DNA from: Rhodocyclaceae bacterium
GTDB lineage: Bacteria > Pseudomonadota > Gammaproteobacteria > Burkholderiales > Rhodocyclaceae
Length of the DNA: 41,599 bases
Direction: 5' to 3'
Assembly (NCBI GenBank): GCA_011391215.1
Contig: JAABQX010000014.1
Location: forward strand, 1 to 41,599
Part shown: positions 3,745-41,599 of the stretch, in pieces
How the letters are laid out: each line of letters begins with the position of its first letter
How positions within the stretch are numbered: the stretch's first letter is position 1
Program-made: the position numbers and the translations under genes
The notes under the pieces: generated by a model
Told to the model about the DNA's origin: nothing
The model's database searches: none
The model's input: only the letters and a program-made list of their open reading frames with translations

Positions 3745-5709
3745 GTGTCCCTTCATCTGATCCTGCTATTGCTTGCCTCCGCAGTACTTGCGGTAGTCGC
3801 GTGTCGCAGCCTCAACCTGCCGCCCATTCTCGGTTACCTGCTGGTCGGTGCGCTGGCGGGGCCGCATGCTTTCGGCCTGATGCCCGATAGCGCCAGCGCC
3901 CAGCGGCTGGCGGAATTCGGCGTGGTGTTCCTGATGTTCACCATCGGCCTCGAATTTTCGTTGCCGCGTCTCTTCGCCATGCGGCGCATCGTGTTTGGCC
4001 TCGGTCTGGCGCAGGTCGTCGTAACACTTGCGGCGGTGGCGGCCAATGCCATGTTCTGGGGCGTGTCCTGGCAGGCTAGCGTGGCGCTGGGTGGGGCGCT
4101 TGCCATGTCATCGACGGCGATCCTCTCCAAGCTCTTGAGCGAACGGCGCGAACTCGACGCTGCGCACGGCCGCGAAGTGATGGGCGTGCTGCTGTTCCAG
4201 GATTTAGCCGTGGTGCCCTTGCTGGTGCTGATCCCCGCGCTGTCGCAACCGGTCGATGCCTTGGCTGGCGAACTGGGCCTGGCGCTGGTGAAAGCCGCCG
4301 CGCTGCTTGCCTTGGTGTTGTTTATCGGCCAACGCCTGATGCATGCCTGGTTTGGTTTGGTGGCGCGGCGAAAATCGAGCGAACTGTTCATGCTCAACGT
4401 ATTGCTGGTAACACTCGGTTTTGCCACCGTGACCGAGCTGGCCGGGCTGTCGCCGGCGCTGGGTGCATTCGTCGCCGGCATGTTGATCTCCGAGACCGAG
4501 TACCGCTATCAGGTCGAAGAAGATGTCAAACCCTTCCGCGACGTGCTGCTCGGTCTGTTCTTCATCTCCACCGGCATGATGCTCGATCCGGTGGCGATCT
4601 GGCACGATGTCGCTGGTGTGCTGGCGATGTTGCTATTGTTGCTGGCGAGCAAGCTGGCCGTGGTCGGCGTGATCTCGCGCCTGTTGGGCAGTAGCCCGGG
4701 CACGGCGCTGCGCTCGGGTCTCTGGCTCTGCGCGGCGGGCGAATTCGGTTTCGTGCTGCTGGCGCGTGCCACCGACACTGGCCTGATCGATCCCGAGCGT
4801 ATCCAGCCTGTGCTGGCAGCCATGGTGCTGTCGATGATGATCGCGCCGCTGATCGTGCATTTTTCCGACCGCTTCGTCTTACGCTTTGTCGCTGCGGAGT
4901 GGCTGATGCGTTCGATGCAGCTGACCCAGATCGCGGCCCGCACTGTGGCGGCCGAAAAGCACGTCATCCTCTGCGGCTACGGGAAAACCGGCCAGCACCT
5001 GGCGCGCTTTCTCGAAAGCGAGCAGATCGGTTTCATGGCGCTCGACCTCGATCCCGAACGGGTACGCGAAGCTGCCGCGGCCGGCGAACCGGTGGCCTGG
5101 GGCGACTGCGTGCGCCGCGAAAATTTGCTGGCGGCGGGGATTTTGCGGGCCAGTGCGCTGGTGGTGACTTTCGCCGATATCGATACCACCTTGCGCCTGG
5201 CCGAGCGCGTGCGCGAGTTGCGCCCCGATCTGCCCATCGTGGCACGCTCGCGCGAGGAGGAGGATGCGGAAAAACTCTTCGAGGCCGGGGTGGCCGAGGT
5301 GGTACCCGAAGCGCTCGAGTCCTCGGTGATGCTCGCCACCCATGCCCTGGCGCTGGTGGGGGTGCCGATGCACCGCGTTATCCGGCGCTTGCGCGATCTG
5401 CGCGAGCAACACTATGCTCTGTTACGTGGCTTCTTTCATGGTACGTCGGATGCCGGGGAGCATTTATCCGACTCTGAGCAGCACCGCCTGCACGCCGTTA
5501 CCCTCGATGCGGGCGCGTGGGCAGTCGGGCGTAGCCTCGAAGCAATTGCGCTGGAAAAAGTCGGCGCTGGCGTGACGGCGATTCGCCGCCGGTCGCAGCC
5601 GCAGGTGGCTTTGTCAGGCGATACCTTGCTGCATGCCGGGGATGTGGTGGTGATTCGCGGCGGGGCTGCGGCGGTGACGGCGGGGGAAGAGCGGTTGTTA
5701 CGTGGGTAA
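3745..5709 (+). CDS. CPA2 family monovalent cation:proton antiporter (KefB/YbaL-like)
   Basis: A 654-residue membrane protein. Residues 1 to about 385 hold the many transmembrane segments of a sodium/proton-exchanger domain (LGYLLVGALAGPHAFGL near the start, FLMFTIGLEFSLP). Around residue 405 a TrkA-N nucleotide-binding domain starts with the GxGxxG motif (CGYGKTGQHLARFLE) and the acidic end of strand 2 (LDLDPERV). A TrkA-C domain occupies about 570-650. The likely role is potassium efflux or exchange gated by NAD(H) or a ligand. The start is GTG at 3745. One copy of the dispersed 26-nt repeat codes for EKVGAGVTA in the TrkA-C domain. The exact substrate and Kef subtype cannot be set from sequence alone. 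Confidence 0.88.
   Translation: MSLHLILLLLASAVLAVVACRSLNLPPILGYLLVGALAGPHAFGLMPDSASAQRLAEFGVVFLMFTIGLEFSLPRLFAMRRIVFGLGLAQVVVTLAAVAANAMFWGVSWQASVALGGALAMSSTAILSKLLSERRELDAAHGREVMGVLLFQDLAVVPLLVLIPALSQPVDALAGELGLALVKAAALLALVLFIGQRLMHAWFGLVARRKSSELFMLNVLLVTLGFATVTELAGLSPALGAFVAGMLISETEYRYQVEEDVKPFRDVLLGLFFISTGMMLDPVAIWHDVAGVLAMLLLLLASKLAVVGVISRLLGSSPGTALRSGLWLCAAGEFGFVLLARATDTGLIDPERIQPVLAAMVLSMMIAPLIVHFSDRFVLRFVAAEWLMRSMQLTQIAARTVAAEKHVILCGYGKTGQHLARFLESEQIGFMALDLDPERVREAAAAGEPVAWGDCVRRENLLAAGILRASALVVTFADIDTTLRLAERVRELRPDLPIVARSREEEDAEKLFEAGVAEVVPEALESSVMLATHALALVGVPMHRVIRRLRDLREQHYALLRGFFHGTSDAGEHLSDSEQHRLHAVTLDAGAWAVGRSLEAIALEKVGAGVTAIRRRSQPQVALSGDTLLHAGDVVVIRGGAAAVTAGEERLLRG
5554..5579 (-). 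repeat. Dispersed 26-nt repeat, copy 1 (in antiporter gene)
   Basis: Matches the consensus GCCGTCCCGCCAGYG + CCGACTTTTTC at 25 of 26 positions on the minus strand. On the gene strand it encodes EKVGAGVTA within the TrkA-C domain. Here the sequence fits the family length, so this copy may have arisen by substitution rather than insertion. Confidence 0.75.
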
Positions 5710-5714
5710 AAAAG

Positions 5715-5740
5715 ACAAAGCCCGCCGCAGCGGGCTTTGT
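5715..5740. terminator. Bidirectional intrinsic terminator
   Basis: A perfect 11-bp stem (ACAAAGCCCGC / GCGGGCTTTGT) with the 4-nt loop CGCA lies between the converging antiporter gene (stop 5709) and the pilin gene (stop 5760). On the minus strand it is followed by CTTTTTT, a strong U-tract for the pilin transcript. On the plus strand the tract is weaker. Confidence 0.85.
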
Positions 5741-5759
5741 TGGGCAGAACGATGTTGGA

Positions 5760-6437: not shown

Positions 6438-6474
6438 TTTGAACTCCACCTAAAGTTATAACTACAGACCATTA

Positions 6475-6490: not shown

Positions 6491-6595
6491 TGTCTCGGCT
6501 GTGCTTGAAAATCAAGAAAAGCGCGGGTAAGCGCTGCAATTCCGGTAACGAAGTGAAAAAGTGGTGGCCTTCCTGACGATACGATGAACCTTGAG

Positions 6596-9760: not shown

Positions 9761-9786
9761 GCCCTCTCGCCAGTGCCGACTTTTCA
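9761..9786 (+). repeat. Dispersed 26-nt repeat, copy 2 (after pseudopilin stop)
   Basis: GCCCTCTCGCCAGTG followed by CCGACTTTTCA; the core is intact. It directly abuts the stop codon of the pseudopilin gene and lies in the 90-bp gap before the adenylate cyclase gene. Confidence 0.8.
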
Positions 9787-10455
9787 GGGCAGACGGCCGG
9801 CGGAGATCAGGCGGGTGATGAGGATGCTGGATGGCAGCCAGACCAGCAAGTCGTCGAAACCCGTAGTGCCTCCGGTCTGGGTGTGCTGGACGAAGTCGGC
9901 GTCAGCAGCGACATAGGTCCTGTTTTTCAGTTCGTCCGCATCGGTGGGCGTCGCTGCGCCATTTTTCCCCAGTGACAGAACAACAGCGGGGAGTGCAGCG
10001 GCCAAGGCTGTGGCGCAGGTACTGGCTTCGCATACTCGTATGTCTCCTGCCGTTGACAAGGTGAATCCAGCTGTGCTGTCGGAGAATGTGGCGGCAACAC
10101 GGTAACGGAACGGGTTGTTCCAGGCATCCTGACGCCCGAGCCCGAGCGTTGCCCAAGGCAGATTACCTTCTTGCAGAGTGCATGCGCTGCCGGTGCGATT
10201 CTCCAGCCCATCACCATCTGTGTCGGGGCACGGCAGATAAGGCTTGGTTTTGCTTGCCGCGAACCCGATCAGTGCCTCGCTGATGTTGGCAAGCTGCTTC
10301 TGGGTGTCAGTGTTGTTGCGAATATCCTGCTGCACCGACATCGGTATGACCATCCCGCCGATCAGGAGGGAGACGATGACCAGCACCACCGCCATTTCGG
10401 TGAGCGTGAAGCCGCGCGAAAAAGTCGGCACTGGCGGGACGGCAGGCAGCCGCAT
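9784..10455 (-). CDS. MSHA-type pseudopilin (MshO/MshD-like) with repeat-encoded leader
   Basis: A 223-residue prepilin. The leader MRLPAVPPVPTFSRG is followed by the prepilin motif FTLTEMAVVLVIVSLLIGGMVIPM with Glu at +5. The mature part is a pilin-like globular domain with Cys pairs (LPCPDTDGDG, SACTLQEG; RVCEASTCA) seen in minor pseudopilins that include an LPCPDTDGDG segment. The start at 10455 is chosen because GGAGG lies just upstream (3 nt, a short spacing) and gives a leader of normal length; the open frame extends to 10545, but that adds 30 residues, mostly from another repeat copy. The leader peptide AVPPVPTFS comes from a dispersed repeat and should be removed by prepilin peptidase. 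Confidence 0.82.
   Translation of the reverse strand: MRLPAVPPVPTFSRGFTLTEMAVVLVIVSLLIGGMVIPMSVQQDIRNNTDTQKQLANISEALIGFAASKTKPYLPCPDTDGDGLENRTGSACTLQEGNLPWATLGLGRQDAWNNPFRYRVAATFSDSTAGFTLSTAGDIRVCEASTCATALAAALPAVVLSLGKNGAATPTDADELKNRTYVAADADFVQHTQTGGTTGFDDLLVWLPSSILITRLISAGRLP
10418..10443 (-). repeat. Dispersed 26-nt repeat, copy 3 (prepilin leader)
   Basis: A perfect match to the consensus on the minus strand. It is in the AVPPVPTFS frame and makes up most of the pseudopilin leader peptide, ending just before the cleavage-site Gly. Confidence 0.9.
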
Positions 10456-10501: not shown

Positions 10502-10527
10502 GAGAAAGTCGGCATTGGCGGAACGGC
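10502..10527 (-). repeat. Dispersed 26-nt repeat, copy 4 (after adhesin stop)
   Basis: GCCGTTCCGCCAATG followed by CCGACTTTCTC on the minus strand, with three mismatches to the consensus. It starts 5 nt after the TGA of the adhesin gene and lies 58 nt from copy 3 in the same orientation. Confidence 0.85.
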
Positions 10528-10532
10528 GGATT

Positions 10533-13500
10533 TCATGGCAGCCATGTGGTGAAGAAATCACTGATGGTGATGACTTGGCTTTGCGTGCTTTGACTTGTGG
10601 TGAAACCCAGGCGCGTGGTGCGCAAGGCTGGGCGGTAGCAGGTGTTGTCGATGCCGCAAAATTCGCCGGTAGAGCAGCTCAGGTTGGCGCCGCAGGTGCT
10701 GCCGCGGATATCGTAAATCTTCTGGCTGTCGTAGAGCTTGGGTTTTTGCCCCGTATAGCAGTAACGATGGGTGTCGGTTTCGGTGCCGCCGCACACCTGA
10801 TCGACCGGGTTGGACGTGGGGCAGGTGCCGGTATCGCAGGTGCCGTAGCGGACAACCGGATCCATCTCGTTCATGCTGCTGGTGGTGATTTTCATGCGGG
10901 TGATCTGCTCGGTATTGCTACCTTCTTTCCAGACCTGCGTGGTGACGCGGGCGGCATAGAGATCGTTGACAACGGGCGGTGCGATGCTGATGTTGCTGGT
11001 GCCGGGCGTGGCGTCGCCGTTGAGGCGCCAGTAGGCGCCGGCGCCGGCGCCGTTGGTAACGAACCACATTGCTCCGTCTTTCATCCCGAGGACCGTGTCT
11101 TCAGGAGCGGCGCGACTCCAGCTGCCCTCAGCAGCAAGCCACACGCCATTCAGTCTGGGGTCGGACTGGCCGGCGAGCAGGATGCGGTCACCGGCCTGCG
11201 GGGTGTAGCCGCCGACGCTCGACAGGCCCGATGGGGTGACGTTACCAGTGGCAACTGACTTCACCGCCGCACGGAAACGCTGAATCTCGAGCGGGCTGAC
11301 GCGCAGGATCGGCACTTCGGTGTTCTGCAGACGCCACAGACTGCCGGCATGAGCCGTGCCTTCCTTGACGAACCAGGAGGTGCCGGGCGCCACTTCGAAG
11401 GCTTCGTCGGCCATGGATGCGCGTGCCCAGGTACCGACCGCTGCAAGATAAACACCGTTGGTGGTGGCATCGGTCTGACCGGTAACCAGCAAAATATTGC
11501 CTGATTGCAGAGCGACACCGTCGATAGTGGGTAAATCCGACAAGGTAGCCAGATTCGTCGTGGCGACCACCCTGACTAGTCGGCTGGTGTCGTCACGCCC
11601 GGCATAGGCGCGTTGTACCTCGACACGCATGTGAATGGCCTGATTGACTGGCACGGAGCTCAGGCTGGGATCGAGTTTGTCCACGGCGTAGGGTGGATAG
11701 GGTGGCGGTGAGGGTGGTGCCGTCGGCGAGGTGCCAACAGCAGTCACTGGCGGCGGAAGTACCGGATTGCGCGGTGGCGGGCGTATTGCCGGGGTTACCG
11801 CAATGGGCAACTGTCCATGCACGTTGTCGTCTTCCTCCTGCTTCAGCTTGCAGAAGCCGGCATCGCAGCTGCTGGGGGAGAGGCAATCGGTATTGACGGT
11901 ACAGGTATTAATGATGCCGTCGCTGGTGCTGATAGGAGTCTCCCCACCCCAATACACCAGACCAATGTGACCGCCGGCATAGTCCGGGTCGGCGCGACCG
12001 TTGGCGAGTGTGCGAAACGCCAGCGGCCCGCTCGTCGTTCTCCGTGCCGGATTGAATCCGTCGGGAACGAACGGCGGGTTACTCTGGAAGTTAAACCGGG
12101 TGTCGATTTCGAGCCCGATCTTTGGATAGAGGATGGGCGCGGTGTAGCTGTTGTTGCCCGAATAGCCGAGATGCTGTTCGCCCGCGCCGCAGACATAGGT
12201 GTTATTTACGTCACCATCCACGGCGGCAAAAGCGAAACCATCGCCGGCATCGGTAATGTTGAACTGGAAATAACTGCGAAAACCGCTGCCGGTGGCATGG
12301 GCTTCAGGTGCCCACACGCAGCCAAACAGCGCGGCACCGGAATAGCCCTGGTCCGACTCGACATTTACCCGCCCGAGTGTGACGGTGCGTGTGGCGGGAT
12401 CATAGCGTGACAGTTCCGAGCTGGAAGGCAAGGCGGATGGTGCGGCGAGCATGCTGGCCCCCGGGAGGATGCAGCGCACGATGTCTTGTCCCAGGGTCTG
12501 GATGGGTGGGCGCAGCAGCTTGCTGATGCCTGCATAGGTGTCCCCGGCAGCATTGAAGCTGCTCAGATTGACGCCCTCGAGGTAATTGCTGGCATCGGCC
12601 TTTTCGGTGTTGTCGCGGCGCAGTTGCATTGTTACCCCATCGGTTTTTTTGTCACGCTGGTTGCCAAGCATCAACGCGCCTGCGCACGAGGGAGCCAGCA
12701 CGGTATCCACCGTCACCGCGCAGCTCGCGCACTTGCTTACGAAAACCTGCTCACGGTAATGTGCGTAGTAGCCCGGCGGACCGAAGGCATCGAGGCCAAT
12801 CGAGCAGGCGTCGTTGACCTTGCCATTTGTGCCAAAATTGCTCGCGGCGATCTGGTCGCGTGCGCACTCGGCTATCCGCTCGGTCATCTGGTCAATTTCG
12901 TTGCGAAAGTTTCTATTTTTTCGGACGGCGTCGAAGAGGGTGGCAGAGGTGATCTCCAAGCCGGTATCGTTGGCCACCAGCCCGCAATTTGTACTGCTCG
13001 AGGGACAGGTATTTTTGAAGCTGGTGCCGTCCTTGTAAACCTTGCCTTGGGTCGAAATGGCCAGATTGGTGGCGTCGGTGTTGCTGGTGGATACAGCGCC
13101 GGAAAAATAGGCGCTTGTGGAGGTGACGGCGCCCGCACTGTCCAGCAAGGATGCAGCCAGGCTGGGCTCGAGGTAATTTGCGGGGATGTAATTGCCGCCG
13201 CATTGCGTCACGACATTGCCGTCGGTGGCCCCACGGTTTTGATTGGCGAGTGGGGGGCCCGGTGAAAAGATGATGGCGGTCGGGCGCTCGTGAGCTGTGG
13301 CGATCAGACTTTTGAGCTTTGCCGGGTCAGTTTCGTTGGTGGTGACGATATCGATTTCGCCGAGGGTATCCCAGTTCATGGGCTCGATTTTCTCTATGCG
13401 TTGATGACTTCCAGAAACAGCGTACCAGAGGCATTCACCGTATCCATCGCGCAACGGTCCGGTACCGAAGAGCGCCCAGGGGAAACGCCCGACCACGGTT

Positions 13501-13871
13501 TTGTGCAGGGCGCTGCCGGAGAGGTTCGCATCGCAGCCTTCTCCTGAAGGGTAATCCGGGCAGCCAAACGGGTTGGTGTTGTTGTTCGTGCCCAAGTCGG
13601 GAAGGGGCAGATAAGCGTGGACATAATTGGGTGGCAGGTTGCCCGCATCCATTTGAATCTTGTTCTGCTGTTCGCGAAAGGTTTCGGCATACCAGAGAAG
13701 GGTGGCTTTCGCCTGTGCCAATGCCGCATCGGTCCTTTGCGCCCGCCGTGCCTCGATCATCTCGGGCGTCAGACTGTTGACGAGATAGGTCATGGCGCCC
13801 ATCACCATCAGGATCATGAAGATTAGCAACGCCGCACCGCGTTGGAGTTGCCGCAAGTGCCGTCCCGCCAT
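10533..13871 (-). CDS. Giant pilus-associated adhesin: pilin-type N-terminus, lectin-like domain, tail-fibre-like modules (MshQ-like)
   Basis: A predicted 1112-residue protein. The N-terminus (LQRGAALLIFMILMVMGAMTY, then a long helix) resembles PilX-type minor pilins. Around residues 520-660 an L-type lectin/concanavalin-like region is suggested by FQFNITDAGDGFAFAAVDGD, KIGLEIDTRFN and HIGLVYWGG. A Cys-rich stretch (about 660-690) and a Pro-rich linker follow. At about 764-861 and 862-967 are two related modules of the form TIDGVALQSGN..TNGVYLAAVGTWARA..WFVKEGT..LWRL, like those repeated in phage tail-fibre proteins. The C-terminus is Cys-rich. The start ATG at 13871 lies inside a repeat copy, with AAAAGG 6 nt upstream; the open frame to 13934 overlaps the previous gene. 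Probable cell-surface adhesin or pilus tip; ligand unknown. Confidence 0.75.
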   Translation of the reverse strand: MAGRHLRQLQRGAALLIFMILMVMGAMTYLVNSLTPEMIEARRAQRTDAALAQAKATLLWYAETFREQQNKIQMDAGNLPPNYVHAYLPLPDLGTNNNTNPFGCPDYPSGEGCDANLSGSALHKTVVGRFPWALFGTGPLRDGYGECLWYAVSGSHQRIEKIEPMNWDTLGEIDIVTTNETDPAKLKSLIATAHERPTAIIFSPGPPLANQNRGATDGNVVTQCGGNYIPANYLEPSLAASLLDSAGAVTSTSAYFSGAVSTSNTDATNLAISTQGKVYKDGTSFKNTCPSSSTNCGLVANDTGLEITSATLFDAVRKNRNFRNEIDQMTERIAECARDQIAASNFGTNGKVNDACSIGLDAFGPPGYYAHYREQVFVSKCASCAVTVDTVLAPSCAGALMLGNQRDKKTDGVTMQLRRDNTEKADASNYLEGVNLSSFNAAGDTYAGISKLLRPPIQTLGQDIVRCILPGASMLAAPSALPSSSELSRYDPATRTVTLGRVNVESDQGYSGAALFGCVWAPEAHATGSGFRSYFQFNITDAGDGFAFAAVDGDVNNTYVCGAGEQHLGYSGNNSYTAPILYPKIGLEIDTRFNFQSNPPFVPDGFNPARRTTSGPLAFRTLANGRADPDYAGGHIGLVYWGGETPISTSDGIINTCTVNTDCLSPSSCDAGFCKLKQEEDDNVHGQLPIAVTPAIRPPPRNPVLPPPVTAVGTSPTAPPSPPPYPPYAVDKLDPSLSSVPVNQAIHMRVEVQRAYAGRDDTSRLVRVVATTNLATLSDLPTIDGVALQSGNILLVTGQTDATTNGVYLAAVGTWARASMADEAFEVAPGTSWFVKEGTAHAGSLWRLQNTEVPILRVSPLEIQRFRAAVKSVATGNVTPSGLSSVGGYTPQAGDRILLAGQSDPRLNGVWLAAEGSWSRAAPEDTVLGMKDGAMWFVTNGAGAGAYWRLNGDATPGTSNISIAPPVVNDLYAARVTTQVWKEGSNTEQITRMKITTSSMNEMDPVVRYGTCDTGTCPTSNPVDQVCGGTETDTHRYCYTGQKPKLYDSQKIYDIRGSTCGANLSCSTGEFCGIDNTCYRPALRTTRLGFTTSQSTQSQVITISDFFTTWLP

Positions 13872-13884
13872 CGCCGACCTTTTA
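13859..13884 (+). repeat. Dispersed 26-nt repeat, copy 5 (supplies adhesin start codon)
   Basis: GCCGTCCCGCCATCG followed by CCGACCTTTTA. It begins directly after the stop of the MshK-like gene (TAA overlaps the repeat). On the gene strand an inserted base creates AAAAGG and a CTG-to-ATG change creates the start codon of the adhesin gene. Confidence 0.75.
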
Positions 13885-14340
13885 CTTCTGCGGCGCGTGC
13901 CGCTGAATGCGGATTTCGCCATCGGCAAGACCACCGGTGGTTTCGCGCGTGGCCCTGTTGAGGGTGACTCCGACTTTCAGGTCGGCGGGAGGCTCGGTGC
14001 CGGCGCTGAGCGTGGCGCGCCCCGGTTCGCGCCGTGAGGTAGAGGCAATGACGCCGCTGTCTTGGGAATTTTCGGTCTGGGGACGGTTATTGACCCAGAC
14101 CGTGGATTTGCCGGTCGAGCGCACCACGACGCCGTCAAGGCGAACGGAATCACCCTCGAGGTTGCGGGTTTCCTGGATGTTGAGCTGGCGTTGGCGCTCG
14201 AGATTGGCGCGCCATTCGGGGGGCATGAACAGGCGACCTAGTGGTTGCATGGGTGGCGCGGGTTCGGTAGCGCACACGGGCAGCACGTGCAGGGCGCAAC
14301 TGCCGGTGATCAGGACGAGAATCAGGCGGGCCGTGCTCAT
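13882..14340 (-). CDS. MshK-like pilus biogenesis periplasmic protein
   Basis: A 152-residue protein with a signal peptide (about 25 residues, ending VCA). The central segment LFMPPEWRANLERQR...SVRLDGVVVRSTGKSTVWVNN has the short beta-rich pattern of MshK/PilP-type proteins, which couple inner-membrane pilus assembly proteins to the secretin. The ATG overlaps the TGA of the upstream J-like gene (ATGA). Its position after MshI- and MshJ-like genes matches the order in Vibrio MSHA loci. Primary sequence similarity is too weak for a firm symbol. Confidence 0.62.
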   Translation of the reverse strand: MSTARLILVLITGSCALHVLPVCATEPAPPMQPLGRLFMPPEWRANLERQRQLNIQETRNLEGDSVRLDGVVVRSTGKSTVWVNNRPQTENSQDSGVIASTSRREPGRATLSAGTEPPADLKVGVTLNRATRETTGGLADGEIRIQRHAPQK

Positions 14341-14945
14341 GTTTTTTCCTGCAGGGTGATCCAGTCGATTTCGCAGGATGCCTTCAAGGTGGCGGCATTC
14401 GTCTGGTTTGGTGTGGCGGGAATCCGTTCGATCTTGCAGGCTTTGACGCTGATGAGCGCCTGCACTCGTGCCGACAGGTCGGCAATCAGGCCGAGCAGAT
14501 CGTTTTCATGGAGCAGGGGCATTTCCAGTTTCATCGGGCTAACCATGAAAGTAAATCCGCCGCTGGCGGTAACTGCCTTGTCGTCGAGTGGCTTTTGCGG
14601 GGAAATCTCATAGTCGAGACCTAGCAGTCGCCGCGACTCCTTGATGCTGCGCAGGGTTTCGACCCACTCGAGACGCCGCTCAGGCTGGGTGCGCCCCAGG
14701 CGAACGGCTTCCTGATAGCGGGCGATTTTTTCGCCGATTTCTCGCTGATCGTCATTGGCGCGGGCCAGGCGGCTGCGGGTTTCGGTTTGCAGTGCCAGAG
14801 CCTGCTTGTGTGCAAGCTCGGTTTGGTGACCGAGATGAAGTATGCCGGTAATGGCTGCTGCAGTAGTCAGGCAAGCCGCCAGCAAAAGCAAGAGGCTCCA
14901 GCCAAGAAATTTGAGGTTGATGACAGAGGGAGCGCCGGGTTCCAT
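14337..14945 (-). CDS. MshJ/PilO-like inner-membrane pilus assembly protein
   Basis: A 202-residue bitopic membrane protein: one transmembrane helix near residues 12-34 (FLGWSLLLLLAACLTTAAA), a periplasmic coiled coil rich in Arg/Glu/Gln (about 40-90), and a small globular domain at the C-terminus. This is the PilO/GspM-like architecture. In such systems it pairs with the PilN-like periplasmic part of the neighbouring MshI protein. It is followed by the K-like gene with a 4-nt overlap and preceded by mshI with an 11-nt gap. Confidence 0.65.
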   Translation of the reverse strand: MEPGAPSVINLKFLGWSLLLLLAACLTTAAAITGILHLGHQTELAHKQALALQTETRSRLARANDDQREIGEKIARYQEAVRLGRTQPERRLEWVETLRSIKESRRLLGLDYEISPQKPLDDKAVTASGGFTFMVSPMKLEMPLLHENDLLGLIADLSARVQALISVKACKIERIPATPNQTNAATLKASCEIDWITLQEKT

Positions 14946-14956
14946 GGTCTCAGGTC

Positions 14957-16501
14957 TCAGAGTTTACGCGTCAGTCGGAAGGAAAACTTTGGTGCTTCCG
15001 GTGTACTTTTCTCGTCCCCACTTTTAAGGGTTTTTCCTGACTGGGTATCGACGGGTTGTTGGAGGATGGTGACCAGCGTATCGGGAGCCGTGCCTAGATG
15101 CTTGATAAAGTCGGCAACCAGAGCTAGCTGACCGCGCTGGTTGCCGGCCATGCTGATGGGCAGTTGCGCGGCGACGATCGCCTGCGCATAGGGGCCGTTG
15201 GCCATATTGGCGGGTAATGGCGGTGGTGCGACAACGCCTGCGGCTACAACAGAGGGTGCGGACTCGATCCGTTCGGTTATTTTCCATTCGAGACGCTCGA
15301 TCGTGATGTTCGGGAAGGCGTCGAGTGACTGGCTGAGTTGCATGAGCAGCGGTGCCGGCCCTTGGGCGCGCTTGGCCACCTGATCGGCGCGATCAGCCAG
15401 CGCACGCAGGTTATCAATGGAGAGCGGAATCTTTGGCAAGGACTGTAGCGTGGCGTCGTAGCGCTGCTGGTCGAGGCGTGTCTGCTGCTGGATCTGTTCG
15501 ATGGTGTTCTGCGTATGCAGCATTTCCAGCCCCAACTTGGCGGCAAACAGCATGCCACCGGCCAGAATGACGGCGCTGACGGCTTTCAGTACATAGCGGG
15601 TTTGCCACAGACGGTGGAACTGGCGCTCTGCCGGCGGCGCAAACTGTTCTGCGGGTGGCTTTCTTGCCAGCAGGTGGCAGAACAATGCTTCCGCGTGCGA
15701 ATCGGCAAGTGGCGAGTGCAGACCGACACGCTTGGCGGTCTCCAGCAGGTCGAGGACCTCAAAACGTAGTTCGGCATTGTCCCGACAACGCGCGCGCAAG
15801 GCGGCCGCTTGAGCCGGGTGCGCTAGCAACATGGTCGAAAGTGGCTTGCCACGTTCGATCAGGCGCTGGCTTGCCAGATACTGATGCATCTTCATGGCCT
15901 GCAGCGCGGATGCCATGGCTAGTTCGTCAGCCGAGCCCTCTGGCAAGGGGGTCAGGCGCGAAAAGCGCATCTGGCCTTCAACGAAGAAAGACTGGCGCAA
16001 TCCGGCGTGCGTCCGCGTCAGCAGCAGCAGTTGTGGTGGGGGCTGCCTGGGGAGCAAGCCGAGGATGGTTTGGGGCAGCGAATAAATGCTGGCAAGGATC
16101 GCCTGCGTGTCGTGCATGACGGCGAGCCATGGCTCGAACTGTTGCGGCCGGGTCAGGGCCATCAGCAGGAGCCGCTCGTCACGCCGGCCGGTCTTGAGAC
16201 GTCCCTGCGAAAGCGCGATGGAATAGGGCGTGCCGTAAAAGTGCTGGGCGAGTTTTCGCGTGATGATCGCGCGCCGGTCTTTCCCTGAACTGTTGGGGAT
16301 GTCCTCGATCTGAAAGCCTTCTTCGGCAACATCCGCCAGCAGCATGAACACGCTGCGGTGCTGCTGTGTCAGGTAGGTGCCGAAAGCCGCTAGGCCGGCC
16401 GGATCGGCCGCGAACACGCCCTCCGGCTGCACGGAGCCACCGCCGATGCGATAAGCGGTGAGGTGGGCGGCGTCAAGAAAAAGGACACGGCGCTGGGTCA
16501 T
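14957..16501 (-). CDS. mshI: MshI-like pilus assembly protein (PilM/PilN-type)
   Basis: A 514-residue protein. The N-terminal ~270 residues look like the cytoplasmic actin-like (PilM/GspL) part, followed by a helical linker, one transmembrane segment (about residues 301-325, YVLKAVSAVILAGGMLFAAK), a coiled coil (QIQQQTRLDQQRYD) and a PilN-like periplasmic domain. These proteins recruit the assembly ATPase to the inner-membrane platform. The location between mshG and the J/K-like genes supports the assignment. The fusion-like two-part structure is normal for MshI/GspL. The family call is from topology and context more than signature motifs. Confidence 0.68.
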   Translation of the reverse strand: MTQRRVLFLDAAHLTAYRIGGGSVQPEGVFAADPAGLAAFGTYLTQQHRSVFMLLADVAEEGFQIEDIPNSSGKDRRAIITRKLAQHFYGTPYSIALSQGRLKTGRRDERLLLMALTRPQQFEPWLAVMHDTQAILASIYSLPQTILGLLPRQPPPQLLLLTRTHAGLRQSFFVEGQMRFSRLTPLPEGSADELAMASALQAMKMHQYLASQRLIERGKPLSTMLLAHPAQAAALRARCRDNAELRFEVLDLLETAKRVGLHSPLADSHAEALFCHLLARKPPAEQFAPPAERQFHRLWQTRYVLKAVSAVILAGGMLFAAKLGLEMLHTQNTIEQIQQQTRLDQQRYDATLQSLPKIPLSIDNLRALADRADQVAKRAQGPAPLLMQLSQSLDAFPNITIERLEWKITERIESAPSVVAAGVVAPPPLPANMANGPYAQAIVAAQLPISMAGNQRGQLALVADFIKHLGTAPDTLVTILQQPVDTQSGKTLKSGDEKSTPEAPKFSFRLTRKL

Positions 16502-16531
16502 GGGGGTTGTATCGCTAGTACTTTAGGGACT

Positions 16532-17731
16532 TCAGATTTTAAGTTTGCTGATGGTGTCATAAATCGGGCCCAGCACGGAAAGCATGACCCAGCCAAGAAT
16601 GGCGCCGACGATCATGGTCATGGCCGGTTCGATCATGGCCTGCACGCGGGCAATCGACTCACGTACATCACGGTTATAGAAATAGCTGACATTTGACAGT
16701 GCGGTATCCAGCGAGCCGGTATTTTCGCCGACACGCAGCATGCGGATCACTAACGGTGGGAACAGGCCGACGTTCTGAAAGGCAACAGTAATGTTCTGGC
16801 CGTCGCTGATCATTTCCTCGACGCGTTGCAGGCCTTCCTGGATGAAGGTGTTGCCGACGATGCCCTGCGTGGTGCGGATCGAGTCGAGCACGGAAATGCC
16901 CGAAGCGTACATCATGGCAAAGACGCCGGCGAAGCGCGACAGAATGATTTTCTTGAAGATTTCTCCGACCCAGGGGAGGGAAAGCTTTGCAGCATCGAAG
17001 CGATAGCGCATCCGGGGGTTGGTCTTGACGGCGAATGCCACGGCGCCGGCCAGCAGGATGGGCAGGAAAATGACCACATACCAATAGCTGAGGAGGAAGT
17101 TGGAGGTGGCGATCAATACCTGGGTATGGATCGGCAACTCCTGACCCATGTTCTTGATAAAGCCGACCATCTTGGGCACGAGGTAAAGCATCATGAACAA
17201 TGTGACGAGGACGACGACAATGCCGAGGAATGCCGGGTACATCACGAGTTTCTTGGTTTGCGCCGCCAACTCGTCCTGCCATTTGATCGACTCGGTCAGG
17301 TTCCCCAGAACTTCCGGCAGGTTGCCGGTTTCTTCACCGGCCTGGATCAGGCTGATGAAAACGCTATCGAAAACCTTGGGGTGGCCGGCCAGCGCCTGCG
17401 AAAGGGTTTTACCCCCTTCCACGCTTTCGAGCAGATCGGCCAGCACTTCGCGAAAACGCGGGTTATCGAGGCTGTCGCGCAGGTCGGCCAAGCTTTCAAT
17501 GATCGGTACGCCGGCACGCGAAAGCTGCTCGAGATGAAAACAAAATGCGATGAGTTCGCGGCGGGTGATGCGCGCACCGCCAAAGCCACCTTGTTTGAGC
17601 GGGTCGCCATTGATCAAATCCAATTCCATGCGCTTCAGGCGCATTTCGAGATCGACCGGATTGAGTGCATCCATGCGACCGAGCACCATGCGGCCGTTCG
17701 GATCCATAGCTTTGTAGGCGTAGAGTGACAT
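16532..17731 (-). CDS. mshG: Type IV pilus inner-membrane platform protein MshG (PilC/GspF family)
   Basis: A 399-residue protein of the PilC/GspF family with two copies of the T2SS F cytoplasmic domain (starting near residues 60 and 265; FCFHLEQLSRAGVPI and SRFAGVFAMMYASGISVLDSI) and three hydrophobic segments, at about 170-190, 215-240 and the C-terminus. It forms the platform on which the assembly ATPase acts. It begins 18 nt after mshE on the same strand. Length and motif layout are standard. Confidence 0.9.
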   Translation of the reverse strand: MSLYAYKAMDPNGRMVLGRMDALNPVDLEMRLKRMELDLINGDPLKQGGFGGARITRRELIAFCFHLEQLSRAGVPIIESLADLRDSLDNPRFREVLADLLESVEGGKTLSQALAGHPKVFDSVFISLIQAGEETGNLPEVLGNLTESIKWQDELAAQTKKLVMYPAFLGIVVVLVTLFMMLYLVPKMVGFIKNMGQELPIHTQVLIATSNFLLSYWYVVIFLPILLAGAVAFAVKTNPRMRYRFDAAKLSLPWVGEIFKKIILSRFAGVFAMMYASGISVLDSIRTTQGIVGNTFIQEGLQRVEEMISDGQNITVAFQNVGLFPPLVIRMLRVGENTGSLDTALSNVSYFYNRDVRESIARVQAMIEPAMTMIVGAILGWVMLSVLGPIYDTISKLKI

Positions 17732-17749
17732 GGGTCAGGTCTTGTGCGC

Positions 17750-19453: not shown

Positions 19454-19492
19454 CCCCGGAATGCCTTGATCACGCTAGGTTTGCATGGTGGC

Positions 19493-20854
19493 CTATTGGC
19501 CGGCTTGCAGGATTTTGAGCCGCGTCGCAACCTGGGCTGCATCGAAGCCGACCGGCTGCTGGGCCACTGCGGCAAGTGCCTGCTTGTAGTACTGAATGGC
19601 CAGGTTGGGCTGGTGCAATTGATCGAGGCTGACGGCGAGATTGAAGAGGTAATCCGGGTTGCCGGGATCTGCGCTGTGGGACTTGAAATAGGCTTGCTGC
19701 GCTTCCGCCCAGCGCGTGCTGCGGGCGTAAAGATTGCCGAGCGCAAAGTTCAGGTAGGGTGAATCCGGCTGTTCCGCCAGCAGGGTTTTCAGGCGACTTT
19801 CGGTGGATTGCGTATCGGTCGGCGTTCTGAGGGAAACCAGGCCGGAGAGCGCCAGTGCGTCTTTCGGGTCGGCCTCCAGTGCGCGTAGGTAGTAATCTGC
19901 CGCTTCGCCCGTTTGCTGGCGCTGCTGGGCGACGGTGGCAAGGCCGTGCAGGGCATCGGCGTTGCGCGGGTCGGATGCCAGCACCTTTTGCCAGTTGGCT
20001 ACGGCCAGGTCGATTTCGCCGCGATTGAAGGCCTGATAGGCTTGATCCAGCAGGGGGTTGATTTTCTGCTGCCCCATGCTCAGGCGAACCGGGGATTGCG
20101 CTTGCGCAGCAGGCGCTGCTTGTATTGGTCTGGCTTCGGTCCGTCTGGGCGGAGGGGGGGCGGCGTTCTCGTCGGCATCATAGTTTCGGCTTGTGGCCGG
20201 TGGCGCTGCCAATGGTGCCAATGCTGCCGATGGTGTTGACGCTACGCCAGGTTCGGAGAAAGTCGGCGCTGGCGGGACGGCGGCGGGTGGTTGCGACGCG
20301 ACGATGGGAGCTGCAGACGCCGGGGTGGCAGGAGAAGGCAGGGGGGCGCCGGTTGCCACGGGTGCGACGATTCCGCCCTTGGGTTGCAGTTGCCACCAGA
20401 AGTAGCCGCCGATGCCGCTGACTGCAAGGAGCGTGATAACACCGACTGCAATGGCGAAGTTACGGTTATTGCTTGGTGCGGGCTGCTTGGCCTCGAAGAG
20501 TTTCCGCGCGGCTTCGGGCGATGTATCTGTTGCGCTTTCCCGTGGCTTGGCCACAGGTTCGGGTGGCGGGGGCGCGATGGTCGGGCTGGGCTTGAATGGT
20601 GTTTTGGCCGCATGGGCCATGAACTGCTCATCCAGGTCTTCAAGCCGGGTGGGTAATTCGGGCAGTTGATTCCCGCCGGGCTTGCCGGAAGGCTGGGGTG
20701 TTGCGCTGACTGCTGCGGGTGGAGGTGCCACGGGTGACAAAACCGGCTCCAGCTCCAAGCCAGAAGGCTCAACCATCGAGTCAGGCTGATTTTGCCCCGC
20801 AAGCCCCTGTTTCTGCTGCTCCGCCTTGCGGAGCGCATCCATCAGCAGACTCAC
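19493..20854 (-). CDS. mshN: MshN-like TPR protein of the pilus cluster
   Basis: A 453-residue bitopic protein: a cytoplasmic start (MSLLMDALRKAEQQKQ type), a Pro/Ala-rich linker, one transmembrane helix near residues 132-155 (FAIAVGVITLLAVSGIGGYF), another long Pro/Ala-rich linker, and tetratricopeptide repeats in the last ~170 residues. The GTG start at 20854 overlaps the mshL stop (GTGA), which decides it; the upstream open frame is mshL. The second linker contains a dispersed repeat copy coding AVPPAPTFS. TPR scaffolds of this type help secretin or platform assembly. Confidence 0.82.
   Translation of the reverse strand: MSLLMDALRKAEQQKQGLAGQNQPDSMVEPSGLELEPVLSPVAPPPAAVSATPQPSGKPGGNQLPELPTRLEDLDEQFMAHAAKTPFKPSPTIAPPPPEPVAKPRESATDTSPEAARKLFEAKQPAPSNNRNFAIAVGVITLLAVSGIGGYFWWQLQPKGGIVAPVATGAPLPSPATPASAAPIVASQPPAAVPPAPTFSEPGVASTPSAALAPLAAPPATSRNYDADENAAPPPPRRTEARPIQAAPAAQAQSPVRLSMGQQKINPLLDQAYQAFNRGEIDLAVANWQKVLASDPRNADALHGLATVAQQRQQTGEAADYYLRALEADPKDALALSGLVSLRTPTDTQSTESRLKTLLAEQPDSPYLNFALGNLYARSTRWAEAQQAYFKSHSADPGNPDYLFNLAVSLDQLHQPNLAIQYYKQALAAVAQQPVGFDAAQVATRLKILQAGQ
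20256..20281 (-). repeat. Dispersed 26-nt repeat, copy 6 (in mshN linker)
   Basis: One mismatch to the consensus on the minus strand. It encodes AVPPAPTFS in the Pro/Ala-rich periplasmic linker of the MshN-like protein. Confidence 0.9.
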
Positions 20855-22677
20855 TGTGCAGCACCCCACGGGTTGTTCAGGCGTTGCTGCGGAGGACCGA
20901 TGTTGCCTTTCTCGAAGAAATCCTGACCGGGCAACTGGTTGCGGTATTCGGAGTAATCGCCCTGCAGGCTGGCATCCTTGATGATCACGGGGCGCAGGAA
21001 AATGACCAGTTCTGTCTTGCTGCGTGTGTCGTTGCGCTGCTGGAATAACGGCCCGAACAGAGGCATGCTGGACAAGGTGGGCAGTCCTTGGTCATTATTG
21101 GTGAGTCTATCTTCCATCAAACCACCCATGACGGCAATATTGCCGCTGTTGATACGCAAGATCGACTCCATTTCTCGAGTCCGAATTACCGGAATCTTGC
21201 TCACAAGCACGCTGCCATCGCTCTTTGTCAGTTCGGGATTGGGATCCTGTATCTCATTTACAACGCTGGTGATGGAAGGCCGGACATTTAGCGTGATGGT
21301 GTTGTTGTCACTGATCTGCGGGGTGACCGCCATCACGAACCCGACGGCAACTGTCTGTGGTGTGGTGGTGACAGCTTTCACGGGTGCGCTACCGCTGACC
21401 CCTGCGGCGACATCGGATTTAATAGTGAAATATACGTTGTTGGTCACGACACGCAGCATGGCGGTCTGGTTGTTAAGTACCGAAAGTTTCGGGCTAGAGA
21501 GGACTTTGACATTGCCATAATCCTCAAGCAGTTTGATCGTGGATTCGAAGGTGCCACCGCTCTCGAAGGTCCTTTTGGCGGTAAGCGTAAACAAACCGTT
21601 GACCGCTTGTGAAACCTGCACCCCGGTACCTAACGCTGCCGTGGCGAGGCCCGATCCGATCCGCTCCCAGTTGATGCCTTGCTGATAGTTGTCTTTTAAT
21701 TCGACTTCAGCGATGGTCGCTTCGATCAGCACTTGGCGTTGGGCGGAAGTCATCACCTGGTCGAGAAATTCGCGTACTTTTTCATGTTGGCGTCCGGTGG
21801 CGCGGATGTTGATGATTCCGGCCTCTGCATTGGCCATCACCGTACCTTTGGGTTCGTACTTGCCGCATGTTGTCTCGTTGCTAGCAGCGCTACCGCTTTG
21901 TTTCTGACCACTCTCATTGCCCGGACCCGTAGACGACACGGGCGCGCCCACAGCAGGCACAACTGTGGTGTTGGAACGTGATCCGGAATTTGATTCGTTT
22001 GAGTTGCGCGCAGCTATGGATGTTTCATTGCATTTCCGCTCCCAAATCGTTTCGCCCTCTTCATTTAGGATGGCCGTGATGTTATTTTTCAAAGTTTCCC
22101 AGAATTTGTTTTGTGTCGTGTTCACAATCTTGGATTCTGAATTGTTGGTGTTGGAGTTTCCCCCCGCTCCGCCGATTCCCTGTGTCGCAATCTGCGAGGA
22201 AACCGTGACGGTGCTGGTGGCGTCACGCGACATGTTGACGTAGTCGACCTTGTAGGTGCGCAGGAATGGCGAGTCAGGCATGACCGCCAAGTTGGGGCCG
22301 TCCATTTCCCAGCGGATATCCACTTGCTTGGCAATACGATTCAGAAGCTGCTGCAGGGTCTGGTTGATGGCATTCAGGGTCACCATGCCTTCAATGCCGG
22401 GATGGATATCGACATTCAACTTGGCGTCGCGGGCCAGCGCAAACAATAATTCCTGCACGCGCACGTTATTGACGACAACGCTGTAGGTCTCGACTTTTGG
22501 CACCGCTCTCGGCTTTGGTACTGCCAAAGTTTGCTGAACAGGAGAGGGAATGGTCGCCGTATCGCCAGCACCGACTTTTTCGGCCCGCAGATGACTGTCG
22601 CCCGGCGGTTGGATGGGCGTATTGCTGCAAGCAGAAAGAAACAGAGCCAGCGCCGGGATAACGAAATATCTCTTCAT
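20851..22677 (-). CDS. mshL: Pilus secretin MshL
   Basis: A 608-residue outer-membrane secretin lipoprotein. A lipoprotein signal (MKRYFVIPALALFLSAC) is followed by a linker, an STN-like domain (about 60-150; VQELLFALARDAKLNVDIHP), a Ser/Asn-rich insert (about 185-290) with Cys residues, and the secretin core ending in VIRTREMESILRINSG, MGGLMEDR and TELVIFLRPVII. It forms the outer-membrane pore for the pilus. The start at 22677 is preferred for the signal peptide although no clear ribosome-binding site precedes it; an in-frame ATG at 22716 is an alternative. A dispersed repeat codes EKVGAGDTA just after the lipid-anchor linker. Confidence 0.9.
   Translation of the reverse strand: MKRYFVIPALALFLSACSNTPIQPPGDSHLRAEKVGAGDTATIPSPVQQTLAVPKPRAVPKVETYSVVVNNVRVQELLFALARDAKLNVDIHPGIEGMVTLNAINQTLQQLLNRIAKQVDIRWEMDGPNLAVMPDSPFLRTYKVDYVNMSRDATSTVTVSSQIATQGIGGAGGNSNTNNSESKIVNTTQNKFWETLKNNITAILNEEGETIWERKCNETSIAARNSNESNSGSRSNTTVVPAVGAPVSSTGPGNESGQKQSGSAASNETTCGKYEPKGTVMANAEAGIINIRATGRQHEKVREFLDQVMTSAQRQVLIEATIAEVELKDNYQQGINWERIGSGLATAALGTGVQVSQAVNGLFTLTAKRTFESGGTFESTIKLLEDYGNVKVLSSPKLSVLNNQTAMLRVVTNNVYFTIKSDVAAGVSGSAPVKAVTTTPQTVAVGFVMAVTPQISDNNTITLNVRPSITSVVNEIQDPNPELTKSDGSVLVSKIPVIRTREMESILRINSGNIAVMGGLMEDRLTNNDQGLPTLSSMPLFGPLFQQRNDTRSKTELVIFLRPVIIKDASLQGDYSEYRNQLPGQDFFEKGNIGPPQQRLNNPWGAAQ
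22556..22581 (+). repeat. Dispersed 26-nt repeat, copy 7 (in mshL N-terminus)
   Basis: GCCGTATCGCCAGCA followed by CCGACTTTTTC; three mismatches to the consensus. On the gene strand it encodes EKVGAGDTA in the linker between the lipobox and the STN domain. Confidence 0.8.
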
Positions 22678-22801
22678 AAGCGAAGAATGAGCCTTTTGTT
22701 TATCTGTCGGAATCATATTAGCACGTTGACTTAAGTCGATGGCATGGAAGATACGGCCAAAAACCCCCATGGTTTCCCGTATGGTGCAGCCAATTTACCC
22801 G

Positions 22802-24187: not shown

Positions 24188-24194
24188 GCGGGGG

Positions 24195-29666: not shown

Positions 29667-31212
<1,546 letters not shown>

Positions 31213-33169: not shown

Positions 33170-34223
33170 GAATTTCCCTTAAGGCTTCAACCAATGCGGC
33201 ACATTGCTCGTCGGTGCCGACGGTGATCCGCAGGAACTGTTCGATCCGCGCTGCCTTGAAATGCCGCACGATGATGCCGCGTTGCCGTAGCGCCAGCGCC
33301 GATTTTTCGGCATCGTGCTTGGGGTGGCGCGCGAAGACGAAATTGGCCGCCGAAGGCAATACCTCGAAACCTAGCGATTCCAGATTCTGCGTCAGCGCGG
33401 TGCGGGTGCGGATGACTGCCTGACGCGTGCGCTCGAACCATTCGCGATCCTCGATGGCGGCTGTGGTGCCGGCAATGGCGAGGCGATCGAGCGGATACGA
33501 GTTGAAGCTGTTCTTGACGCGCTGCAAGGCGTCGATCAAGTCATGGTGACCGATGGCAAAGCCGACGCGCAGCCCGGCGAGCGAACGCGACTTTGAAAAG
33601 GTCTGCACCACCAGCAGATTCGGGTAGAGGCCGACCAGCGCTACCGCTGATGCGCCGCCGAAATCAATATAGGCTTCATCGACGATCACCACTGAAGCCG
33701 GGTTGGCTTTGAGCAATTCCTCGATATCGGCTAGCGGCAGGGCGCGCCCCGTTGGTGCGTTGGGGTTGGGGAAAATAATACCGCCGTTGGGTTGGCGGTA
33801 GTCGGCAATACGAAGCGCAAACGTATCATCCAGCGCTACGGTACGGTAGGCAATCTCGTAGAGCTTGCAATAGACCGGATAGAAACTGTAAGTGATGTCC
33901 GGAAAGAGGATCGGCTGCTCGTGTTTCAGCAGCGCAAGAAACGCATGAGCCAGCACTTCGTCTGAGCCGTTGCCGACAAAAACTTGCTCAGGCTCGATAT
34001 TACCGAAAAATGCCGCAATGGCTTCCCGCAGCCGGTTGCTTTCGGGGTCGGGATAGAGCCTGAGCGAGTCGGCGGTTTCCCCGCGTATGACTTCCAGCAC
34101 ACGTGGGCTGGGTCCGTAGGGATTCTCGTTGGTATTGAGTTTGACGAGGTTGGGCAGCTTCGGCTGTTCGCCCGGGATGTAAGGTTGCAATGCGCGAACG
34201 GTCGCGCTCCAGAATGGGCTCAT
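33159..34223 (-). CDS. hisC: Histidinol-phosphate aminotransferase HisC (inverted in the his operon)
   Basis: A 354-residue PLP aminotransferase ([46 protein letters not shown]; Lys211 in [14 protein letters not shown]). It is on the minus strand although hisG-hisD before it and hisB onward after it are on the plus strand, in the place where hisC normally sits. Its 3' end overlaps hisD by 11 bp; its 5' end faces hisB across a 91-bp gap. A decayed repeat copy lies near the C-terminus. Confidence 0.94.
33285..33310 (+). repeat. Probable decayed copy of the dispersed repeat (in hisC)
   Basis: GCCGTAGCGCCAGCG followed by CCGATTTTTCG; about 21 of 26 positions match. Unlike clear coding copies it is read in a different frame (KSALALR), which suits the normal HisC sequence, so it may be an old copy or chance. 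Confidence 0.4.
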
Positions 34224-38550: not shown

Positions 38551-38563
38551 CTGACCAATCCCC

Positions 38564-38947
38564 ATGTTCGACGTCGGTTTTTCTGAACTTATTGTCATCG
38601 GTCTGGTGGCGCTGATCGTCATCGGACCGGAGCGCCTGCCCGGTGTGGCGCGCACCGTCGGCCATCTGCTCGGTCGCTTGCAACGTTACGTGAATGACGT
38701 TAAGTCCGATATCAATCGCGAGATGCAACTCGACGAACTCAAGAAACTGCAGGAGCAGGTAACCTCCCAGGCGCGCGACATGGAGCGCCAGGTCAATGAG
38801 CAGATGCACTCGGTCGAAACCTCCCTGAATGCCTCGATTGTCCAAGGCATTGAGGAAACGCCGCTGGAACCGCCCCCTACCGCCGTCCCGCCAGCGCCGA
38901 CTTTTTCTGCGATCCCTGTTGCAACCACCGATAAACCCGTTGCCTGA
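38564..38947 (+). CDS. tatB: Twin-arginine translocase subunit TatB
   Basis: A 127-residue TatB: membrane helix (FSELIVIGLVALIVIGPERLP), GPERLPGVARTVG hinge, a long amphipathic helix, and a disordered Pro-rich tail. With TatC it recognises twin-arginine signal peptides. The tail includes AVPPAPTFS from a perfect dispersed repeat copy. It overlaps tatC by TGATG. Confidence 0.95.
   Translation: MFDVGFSELIVIGLVALIVIGPERLPGVARTVGHLLGRLQRYVNDVKSDINREMQLDELKKLQEQVTSQARDMERQVNEQMHSVETSLNASIVQGIEETPLEPPPTAVPPAPTFSAIPVATTDKPVA
38882..38907 (+). repeat. Dispersed 26-nt repeat, copy 9 (in tatB tail)
   Basis: A perfect match to the consensus GCCGTCCCGCCAGYG + CCGACTTTTTC on the plus strand. It encodes AVPPAPTFS in the non-conserved C-terminal tail of TatB. 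Confidence 0.92.
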
Positions 38948-39768: not shown

Positions 39769-39776
39769 CCCGAAGC

Positions 39777-40931: not shown

Positions 40932-40961
40932 GGGGTATTTATCAGGAAGGAGCGGGGGAAC

Positions 40962-41599
40962 ATGCGGCGTAACGAATTGGTTGCTTATCTGGATGAAATG
41001 CTGGCGTCAGCGCGCTTTCGTGATTATTGCCCAAACGGGCTACAAGTGGAAGGGCGTGCGGAGATACAGCATGTCGTCTGCGGTGTGACCGCCAGCCAAG
41101 CGTTGATCGATGCCGCTGCCGAGCGCGGGGCAGACGCGATTCTGGTGCATCACGGCTGGTTCTGGAAGGGGGAGGATGGACGTGTCACAGGCTTCCGCAA
41201 GCATCGGCTGCAAACCTTGTTGGCGCACGACATCAACCTGCTTGCCTATCATCTGCCGCTCGATGCCCATGCCGAATTCGGCAACAACGCACAACTGGCC
41301 CTGAAGCTGGGCTGGTCGGTGACGGGGCGCTTCGCCGAACAAGACATCGGCTTCATTGGCGTTCCTTTCAATGCGACAGCCGAGGTAAGCGCCGTCCCGC
41401 CAGTGCCGACTTTTGCAGAGGAGATCGCGGCACAAGTCGAGCAGCAACTTGGTCGCAGACCCATGCTGGTGGGGGATGGGCAGCGCAGGGTTTATAAAGT
41501 GGCCTGGTGCAGCGGCGGTGCCCAGAGCTATTTCGAGCAGGCCATTCTGGCCGGGGCAGACCTGTTTGTGAGCGGCGAAATATCCGAGCAGACAGTCCA
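40962..41599 (+). CDS. NIF3/GTP cyclohydrolase I type 2 family protein (partial, cut by window end)
   Basis: At least 212 residues are visible, with no stop before the edge. It has the NIF3/YbgI metal-binding pattern (VHHGWFWKG; AYHLPLDAH) and the start MRRNELVAYLDEMLASARFRDYCPNGLQVEG. AGGAG lies about 10 nt before the ATG. The exact reaction of this family is not well settled; metal-dependent hydrolase is the usual annotation. A dispersed repeat copy encodes AVPPVPTFA in a surface region between two conserved segments. Confidence 0.88.
   Translation, partial: MRRNELVAYLDEMLASARFRDYCPNGLQVEGRAEIQHVVCGVTASQALIDAAAERGADAILVHHGWFWKGEDGRVTGFRKHRLQTLLAHDINLLAYHLPLDAHAEFGNNAQLALKLGWSVTGRFAEQDIGFIGVPFNATAEVSAVPPVPTFAEEIAAQVEQQLGRRPMLVGDGQRRVYKVAWCSGGAQSYFEQAILAGADLFVSGEISEQTV
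41391..41416 (+). repeat. Dispersed 26-nt repeat, copy 10 (in NIF3 gene)
   Basis: Matches the consensus at 24 of 26 positions on the plus strand. It encodes AVPPVPTFA in the NIF3-family protein, before the helix EEIAAQVEQQLGRRP. Confidence 0.9.

Follow-up and report, generated by a model that had tools for sequence, protein, structure and literature searches.

A dispersed two-block 24-nucleotide repeat of Rhodocyclaceae with genus-level dialects is a candidate third DNA uptake sequence

The window analysed here, the whole 41,599-nucleotide stretch of a Rhodocyclaceae bacterium (contig JAABQX010000014.1 of assembly GCA_011391215.1), carries a pilus and secretion gene cluster and, scattered along both strands, copies of a short asymmetric repeat that is probably a DNA uptake sequence. 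The cluster occupies about 10536–25691 and contains T2SSE, T2SSF, secretin, AAA_22 and prepilin genes; from its arrangement we take it to be MSHA-like. In the following, G numbers denote sampled genomes, g numbers sampled genera and L numbers fetched DNA stretches.

The repeat unit spans 24–25 nt, (C/T)GCCGTCCCGCCAGCGCCGACTTTT, and is bordered by unconserved flanks, as seen in a logo of 86 copies from 298 kb collected through core matches with at most two mismatches. Its full length is real, because the other half stays conserved when one half is fixed as an anchor; with GCGCCGACTTT anchored, the upstream GCCGT is conserved at 95–100% among 60 copies in G000. Within the window, the 17-mer core has 12 matches at up to three mismatches, whereas 100 dinucleotide shuffles average 0.37 and never exceed 2, and these matches recover all ten copies named in the sequence-only reading, five on each strand. 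The 24-mer GCCGTCCCGCCAGCGCCGACTTTT yields 11 copies at up to four mismatches and no further ones at up to five. A single unit forms no hairpin (−1 kcal/mol, with 165 of 200 shuffles folding at least as well), just as that reading had stated.

The copies, given by their 24-nt starts, lie in diverse settings. Near the left end, the copy at 5556..5579 (−, one mismatch) is antisense within a Na+/H+ exchanger/TrkA_N gene (3745–5709, +), while the copy at 9761..9784 (+, three mismatches) lies in the interval that separates a guanylate-cyclase gene from the 3′ end of a pilin-like open reading frame (ORF). Two copies in the same direction follow 84 bp apart: a T variant at 10420..10443 (−) codes for part of a prepilin leader directly before the GFTLTE processing site, and a copy at 10504..10527 (−, four mismatches) lies upstream of the likely pilin start. 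Additionally, the copy at 13859..13882 (+, two mismatches) is antisense near the start of an 1133-aa ORF without a Pfam match (10533–13934, −), that at 20258..20281 (−, one mismatch) falls in a TPR-protein gene of the pilus/secretion cluster (19493–20869, −), and that at 22556..22579 (+, three mismatches) runs antisense to the secretin gene (20851–22770, −) close to its start. Farther right, the copy at 30126..30149 (−, two mismatches) is antisense in an EPSP-synthase-family gene, within a stretch whose length varies between species, and the copy at 33284..33307 (+, three mismatches) runs antisense within a probable hisC, an aminotransferase gene, at a point where gap-free orthologues without the motif keep an identical length. 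A perfect 24-mer at 38882..38905 (+) lies within the C-terminal region encoded by a TatA/B-family gene that immediately precedes tatC, and a T variant at 41391..41414 (+) lies in a 156-aa ORF without a Pfam match, whose coding status is uncertain and which an antisense ORF overlaps. Two copies had been called perfect: that at 38882 is exact, and that at 10420 departs from the 24-mer only by the T that the original consensus permitted as Y. The two copies regarded as decayed fare differently, the one at 33285 being in fact fair with its three mismatches, and the one at 23232 being only a partial match that is absent at up to seven mismatches.

The window corresponds to contig C14 in an assembly of 2.33 Mb and 102 contigs that is 76% complete, and the guess that many hundreds of copies would be found genome-wide is borne out. 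The assembly holds 522 copies of the 17-mer at up to two mismatches (279 forward and 243 reverse), or one per 4.5 kb, and the reversed-pattern control gives 0 and 1 in the same assembly; count and control together exclude both a frequency near chance and a confinement to the window. In G000, copies with zero to six mismatches number 24, 34, 18, 10, 8, 3 and 8, against 0 in every class of one third-order Markov simulation, and the reversed control yields 0–1 matches per genome against hundreds of motif copies.

The taxonomic range is narrow. A family sample of 395 genomes in 68 genera, drawn from a larger group and searched with the 24-mer at up to three mismatches, contains 55 genomes in seven genera with 88–730 copies; the remaining 340 have at most 24. 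These abundant carriers belong to g1 (18 of 19 genomes), g2 (21 of 22), g70 (4 of 4), g88 (9 of 9), g9 (1 of 1), g62 (1 of 1) and g69 (1 of 1). In the order's other families, 386 genomes contain at most five copies each. Exact 21-mers occur, among the matches listed, in records of Rhodocyclaceae bacterium, Sulfuritalea, Sulfurisoma and Rugosibacter, comprising both metagenome-assembled genomes (MAGs) and isolates, as well as in a Propionivibrio dicarboxylicus MAG and a few records named to class or phylum; NCBI taxonomy places Sulfuritalea, Sulfurisoma and Rugosibacter in Sterolibacteriaceae. The isolate Sulfurisoma sediminicola BSN1 has at least two. A congener of carriers, G006, shows zero 24-mers in a 2.3-Mb, 87%-complete assembly at the same threshold, which makes it useful as a natural negative control.

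In some low-copy genomes, near-perfect copies cluster on one contig (G123:C1:1461266-1490744, G355:C35, G097:C104, G428:C3:26361-30943 and G047:C29:70404-74365). Such clusters possibly represent DNA imported from carriers or MAG contamination, and the motif could act as a tracer of transfer. A blastn search of plasmids with a double motif returned 19 records with partial or short matches, none from a Rhodocyclaceae genus, and 43 stretches of viral contigs contain the exact 18-mer, in what may be phage DNA or host flank.

The motif is divided into clade-specific dialects, as are the DNA uptake sequences (DUS) of Neisseriaceae and the uptake signal sequences (USS) of Pasteurellaceae. The sole g69 genome sampled, G086, uses the dialect GCGTCGACTTTT, with 175 exact CAGCGTCGACTTTT 14-mers; the same 14-mer occurs 10 times in G034, 11 times in G003 and at most six times in any other of the 395 genomes. 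GCGTCGAC is a dialect form of the motif, and the variant of G017 and G004 has a T before the motif and leaves position 20 free.

Along the one-contig chromosome of G017, 20 spaced 20-kb stretches contain 75 copies with a variance-to-mean ratio of 0.87, one stretch being empty. With stretches of skew below 0.02 excluded, the G-rich strand carries 67 copies and the C-rich strand 48 (46 stretches, 34% of the chromosome). In this one chromosome the motif thus occupies both strands throughout and lacks a strong replichore bias, as DUS and USS do. Spacings below 1 kb are rarer than random expectation in G000 (0.11 vs 0.28), G002 (0.09 vs 0.19) and G017 (0.10 vs 0.21). According to crude self-made gene models, on which the reading-frame figures also rest, the intergenic share of copies amounts to 28% in G000, 22% in G002 and 11% in G017, against 5–6% of random positions. 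Among 61 coding copies of G000, 24 are in the frame reading AVPPAPTF and 15 in the antisense frame reading KVGAGGTA; the latter peptide also stands near the end of the G017 comEC frame. Low-GC windows of G017 hold two copies in 38 kb (0.53 vs 2.08 per 10 kb), a depletion that is partly confounded because the motif itself is GC-rich; G000 has no windows of such low GC.

Measured without conditioning on the relative, motif identity among carriers exceeds adjacent-flank identity by 0.138 (95% bootstrap 0.069–0.207; 27 loci, 21 positive). The difference is 0.213 (0.108–0.317; 8 loci) from G017 to G004 and 0.110 (0.057–0.163; 39 loci) from G017 to G002, and it is −0.071 (−0.222 to 0.058; 8 loci, 5 positive) from carriers to the non-carrier congener G006. 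The motif is therefore a conserved island in permissive surroundings, and relative to adjacent flanks it shares with DUS and USS the combination of permissive position and conservation. Across the genus as a whole the weak columns are 6–8, 12 and 24; when G017 is compared with G004 they are 6, 9, 10, 20 and 24.

The repeat is probably a DNA uptake sequence, which would be the third known and a long one, after the Neisseriaceae DUS and the Pasteurellaceae USS. This is the one favoured among the three roles that the sequence-only reading had proposed; of the other two, a chromosome-protein site keeps some probability and a selfish repeat is disfavoured for solitary copies. The uptake signal is preferred because the abundance, the dialects, the even spread, the permissive yet locally conserved positions and the substitution in place at part of the sites match published DUS and USS. 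Mechanistically, free DNA carrying the 24-nt motif would be bound through it by a receptor on the cell surface, presumably one of the minor type IV pilins, and DNA of the own or a sister species would thereby be preferentially taken up and recombined. Since fragments with a good motif would be taken up more often, recombination would restore it again and again at positions that tolerate sequence change. The motif would consequently pile up in intergenic DNA and permissive codons and be held there, would drift into dialects between genera, and would decay once the preference is lost.

The comparison with the two published systems supports this interpretation in several respects. As far as the passages of PMC3630211, PMC2397512 and PMC12616744 on abundance, dialects and location extend, they agree with the motif described here, and a passage of PMC2397512 places DUS and USS in permissive parts of the core genome where they are themselves conserved. 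Like the Neisseriaceae DUS, which is read by the minor pilin ComP, the motif is abundant, non-palindromic, present on both strands, split into dialects and located at permissive yet locally conserved sites, in a betaproteobacterial host with pilus-type genes. Its copies number in the hundreds, however, whereas those of DUS number about one thousand to six thousand. Like the USS, which a passage of PMC12616744 describes as reaching 32 nt, it is an extended motif of comparable total length with hundreds or more copies. Its sequence is unrelated, however, being mostly GC-rich with one 3′ T tract, whereas the USS pairs a core of 9 nt with two AT-rich tracts. It is also rare here for copies to lie close together, in contrast to one H. 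influenzae strain in which, according to a passage of PMC7811141, 23% of strong USS lie within 100 bp of another. A search of one open-access library returned no paper with the motif strings and none linking "DNA uptake sequence" to Rhodocyclaceae or Rhodocyclales.

An alternative, rather unlikely but the best of the rivals, is that the motif is a site for a chromosome protein acting in nucleoid organisation, segregation, division or recombination control, and that it is kept by selection on chromosome function. The even spread and the conservation at fixed permissive sites also fit this role. No sampled region of G017 stands out, however, and the lack of strong replichore strand bias also speaks against it. 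Moreover, copy number varies about 8-fold among abundant carriers and falls to zero in one congener, the dialects shift between genera, and the motif is not palindromic.

Orthologous sites reveal how the copies change. A blastn comparison of 434 site–genome pairs, representing 91 of 219 solitary sites, finds the motif kept (at most three mismatches) in 254 pairs, present with four to six mismatches in 76, and lacking (at least seven) in 104. The surroundings are prone to indels: 36-nt stretches over the motif align without gaps in a fraction of 0.49 of pairs, compared with 0.91 for control windows. A small self-inserting selfish repeat tolerated in genes would account for the high copy number and for the tolerated peptides such as AVPPAPTF and KVGAGGTA, and five pairs in which the relative lacks the motif show a net shortfall of 22–28 bp. 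None of these five is clean, however, and they are the only ones of the 104 near the expected size, so that the precise empty sites typical of an inserted short repeat of the Rickettsia palindromic element kind are not seen. Against such insertion, the net length change is 0 in 51 of the 104 motif-less pairs, and 33 are entirely gap-free, although these represent only some three different sites, the aminotransferase site contributing most of them. The unconserved flanks likewise argue against it, and the selfish repeat is accordingly improbable.

G002 and G017, which are 90% identical over the window region, give a cleaner comparison. Of 51 solitary G017 copies aligned to G002, 27 are kept (at most four mismatches), 22 have five to seven and 2 have at least eight; 15 of these 24 discordant copies are gap-free and differ by substitutions alone. 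Conversely, 25 of 31 solitary G002 copies aligned to G017 are kept, while the remaining six include two that align without gaps. With G004 as outgroup, G002 has five to seven mismatches at four of nine three-way G017 sites, two of them free of gaps, and is the changed lineage there because G004 has only two mismatches at all four; among seven three-way G002 sites, G017 is changed at two (five mismatches, with three and four in G004). Mobile insertion of solitary copies is therefore disfavoured, since 24-bp empty sites are rare, substitutions occur in place and sites are common to three species. The motif looks to be decaying in the G002 lineage, because G002 has fewer copies than G017 (218 vs 393) and a flatter mismatch spectrum.

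A hairpin derivative behaves differently from the solitary motif. It consists of the motif 3′ part with an altered, shorter inverted partner alongside, and matches to the partner number 44 in G002, 56 in G017, 12 in G004, 8 in G007 and 1 in G018; the other 14 of the 19 genus genomes searched lack it. In G002 it forms a 54-bp hairpin unit, repeated in tandem up to about five times, which folds strongly (−24.4 kcal/mol, z −6.9); such tandem units lie at L149 6168–6424, at L153 3434–3559 and 6974–7150, and in L152 and L189. Between G002 and G017, derivative sites show net indels of −26, −27 and −36, which the selfish-repeat explanation could claim in its favour; insertion accordingly fits the derivative better than the solitary copies, and the derivative, in contrast to the solitary motif, behaves like a unit that has been amplified or inserted. 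The earlier exclusion of repetitive extragenic palindromic (REP) sequences and bacterial interspersed mosaic elements (BIME) thus holds for the solitary 24-mer, which has no hairpin, is no palindromic unit and does not resemble an inserted one, but five of the 19 genus genomes also carry the derivative, which resembles these elements in folding strongly.

Slightly less probable still is a role in recombination control like that of Chi or KOPS (FtsK-orienting polar sequence) sites. The motif is indeed abundant and non-palindromic with a slight strand excess of 67:48, but that excess is weak and known Chi sites are far shorter than 24 nt.

Several observations weigh against an uptake sequence. 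Stand-alone ComEA, the strongest objection, is found above the TIGR00426 cut-off in none of 20 abundant carriers (G000–G005, G007–G019 and G026), four of which (G000, G003, G014 and G015) have no match and 16 only weaker matches in ORFs of 620–1723 aa. Seven of 16 family non-carriers, G034 being left aside, possess it (G023, G027, G029, G031, G032, G035 and G036), and in the non-carrier congener G006 none is found above the cut-off. This absence would suit a chromosome-protein site. A different periplasmic DNA protein could possibly stand in for ComEA, as ComH does in Helicobacter. In favour of uptake, 55 of 61 genomes have a ComEC match; the 61 comprise 20 abundant carriers, of which 19 match (the exception being the 83%-complete G018), and G017 has an 802-aa open ComEC frame. 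Non-carriers, however, have ComEC just as often. GspH/FimT pilins do not tell the two groups apart and yield no receptor, and a comparison, not systematic, of the prepilin motif in up to 31 loci gives no carrier pattern. No ComP was identified. Unlike in Neisseria, and unlike the inverted pairs that DUS and USS often form at terminators, opposite-strand pairs within 100 bp number zero among the 94, 51 and 168 copies sampled in G000, G002 and G017. The motif also differs in form, being 24–25 nt in two blocks with no CTG in its forward orientation, whereas DUS, in a passage of PMC12616744, is continuous, up to about 13 nt, with a CTG core.

Further points on the same side concern conservation and sequence context. 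Motif minus far-flank identity is 0.005 over 27 loci, not above zero, and since this difference is nil, the claim of conservation is only local. The lowest-GC windows of G002 are not depleted (two copies in 8 kb), and unaligned DNA, with no copy in 8.2 kb and one in 13.9 kb, is too short for a core-versus-accessory comparison. Moreover, 53 of the 104 motif-less pairs differ also in length and 4 of the 6 discordant G002 copies are gapped, and gain by indel or recombination may have occurred at gapped sites.

Weighed together with these objections, the full picture of an independent third uptake system in environmental Betaproteobacteria, with a two-block 24-nt signal, a putative receptor, no usual ComEA, genus-level dialects and a decaying G002, is evenly poised. 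If true, a third family, in environmental bacteria, would use self-recognition tags in DNA uptake, and this would help to find receptors. Carriers, non-carriers and a lineage seemingly losing the motif would permit comparative tests of how a preference in uptake originates, shifts from one dialect to another and disappears. Even if the motif is not an uptake signal, it is a 24-nt word at hundreds of sites in seven genera, without description in the open-access library searched.

K-mer scans of the non-carriers G111, G134, G205, G178, G238, G236, G147, G102, G006 and G277 detect no similar motif, a negative that is weak because the samples cover only 4–123 kb. They do bring out other words. In G236, from a non-carrier genus, the overlapping palindromic words TTTCGACATG, CATGTCGAAA and ATGTCGAAAT are over-represented in 40 kb (L281 and L282), and the top word of G277 occurs seven times. 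In G002, the word TGGACAATCTG and its neighbours, unrelated to the motif, occur 14 times in 200 kb.

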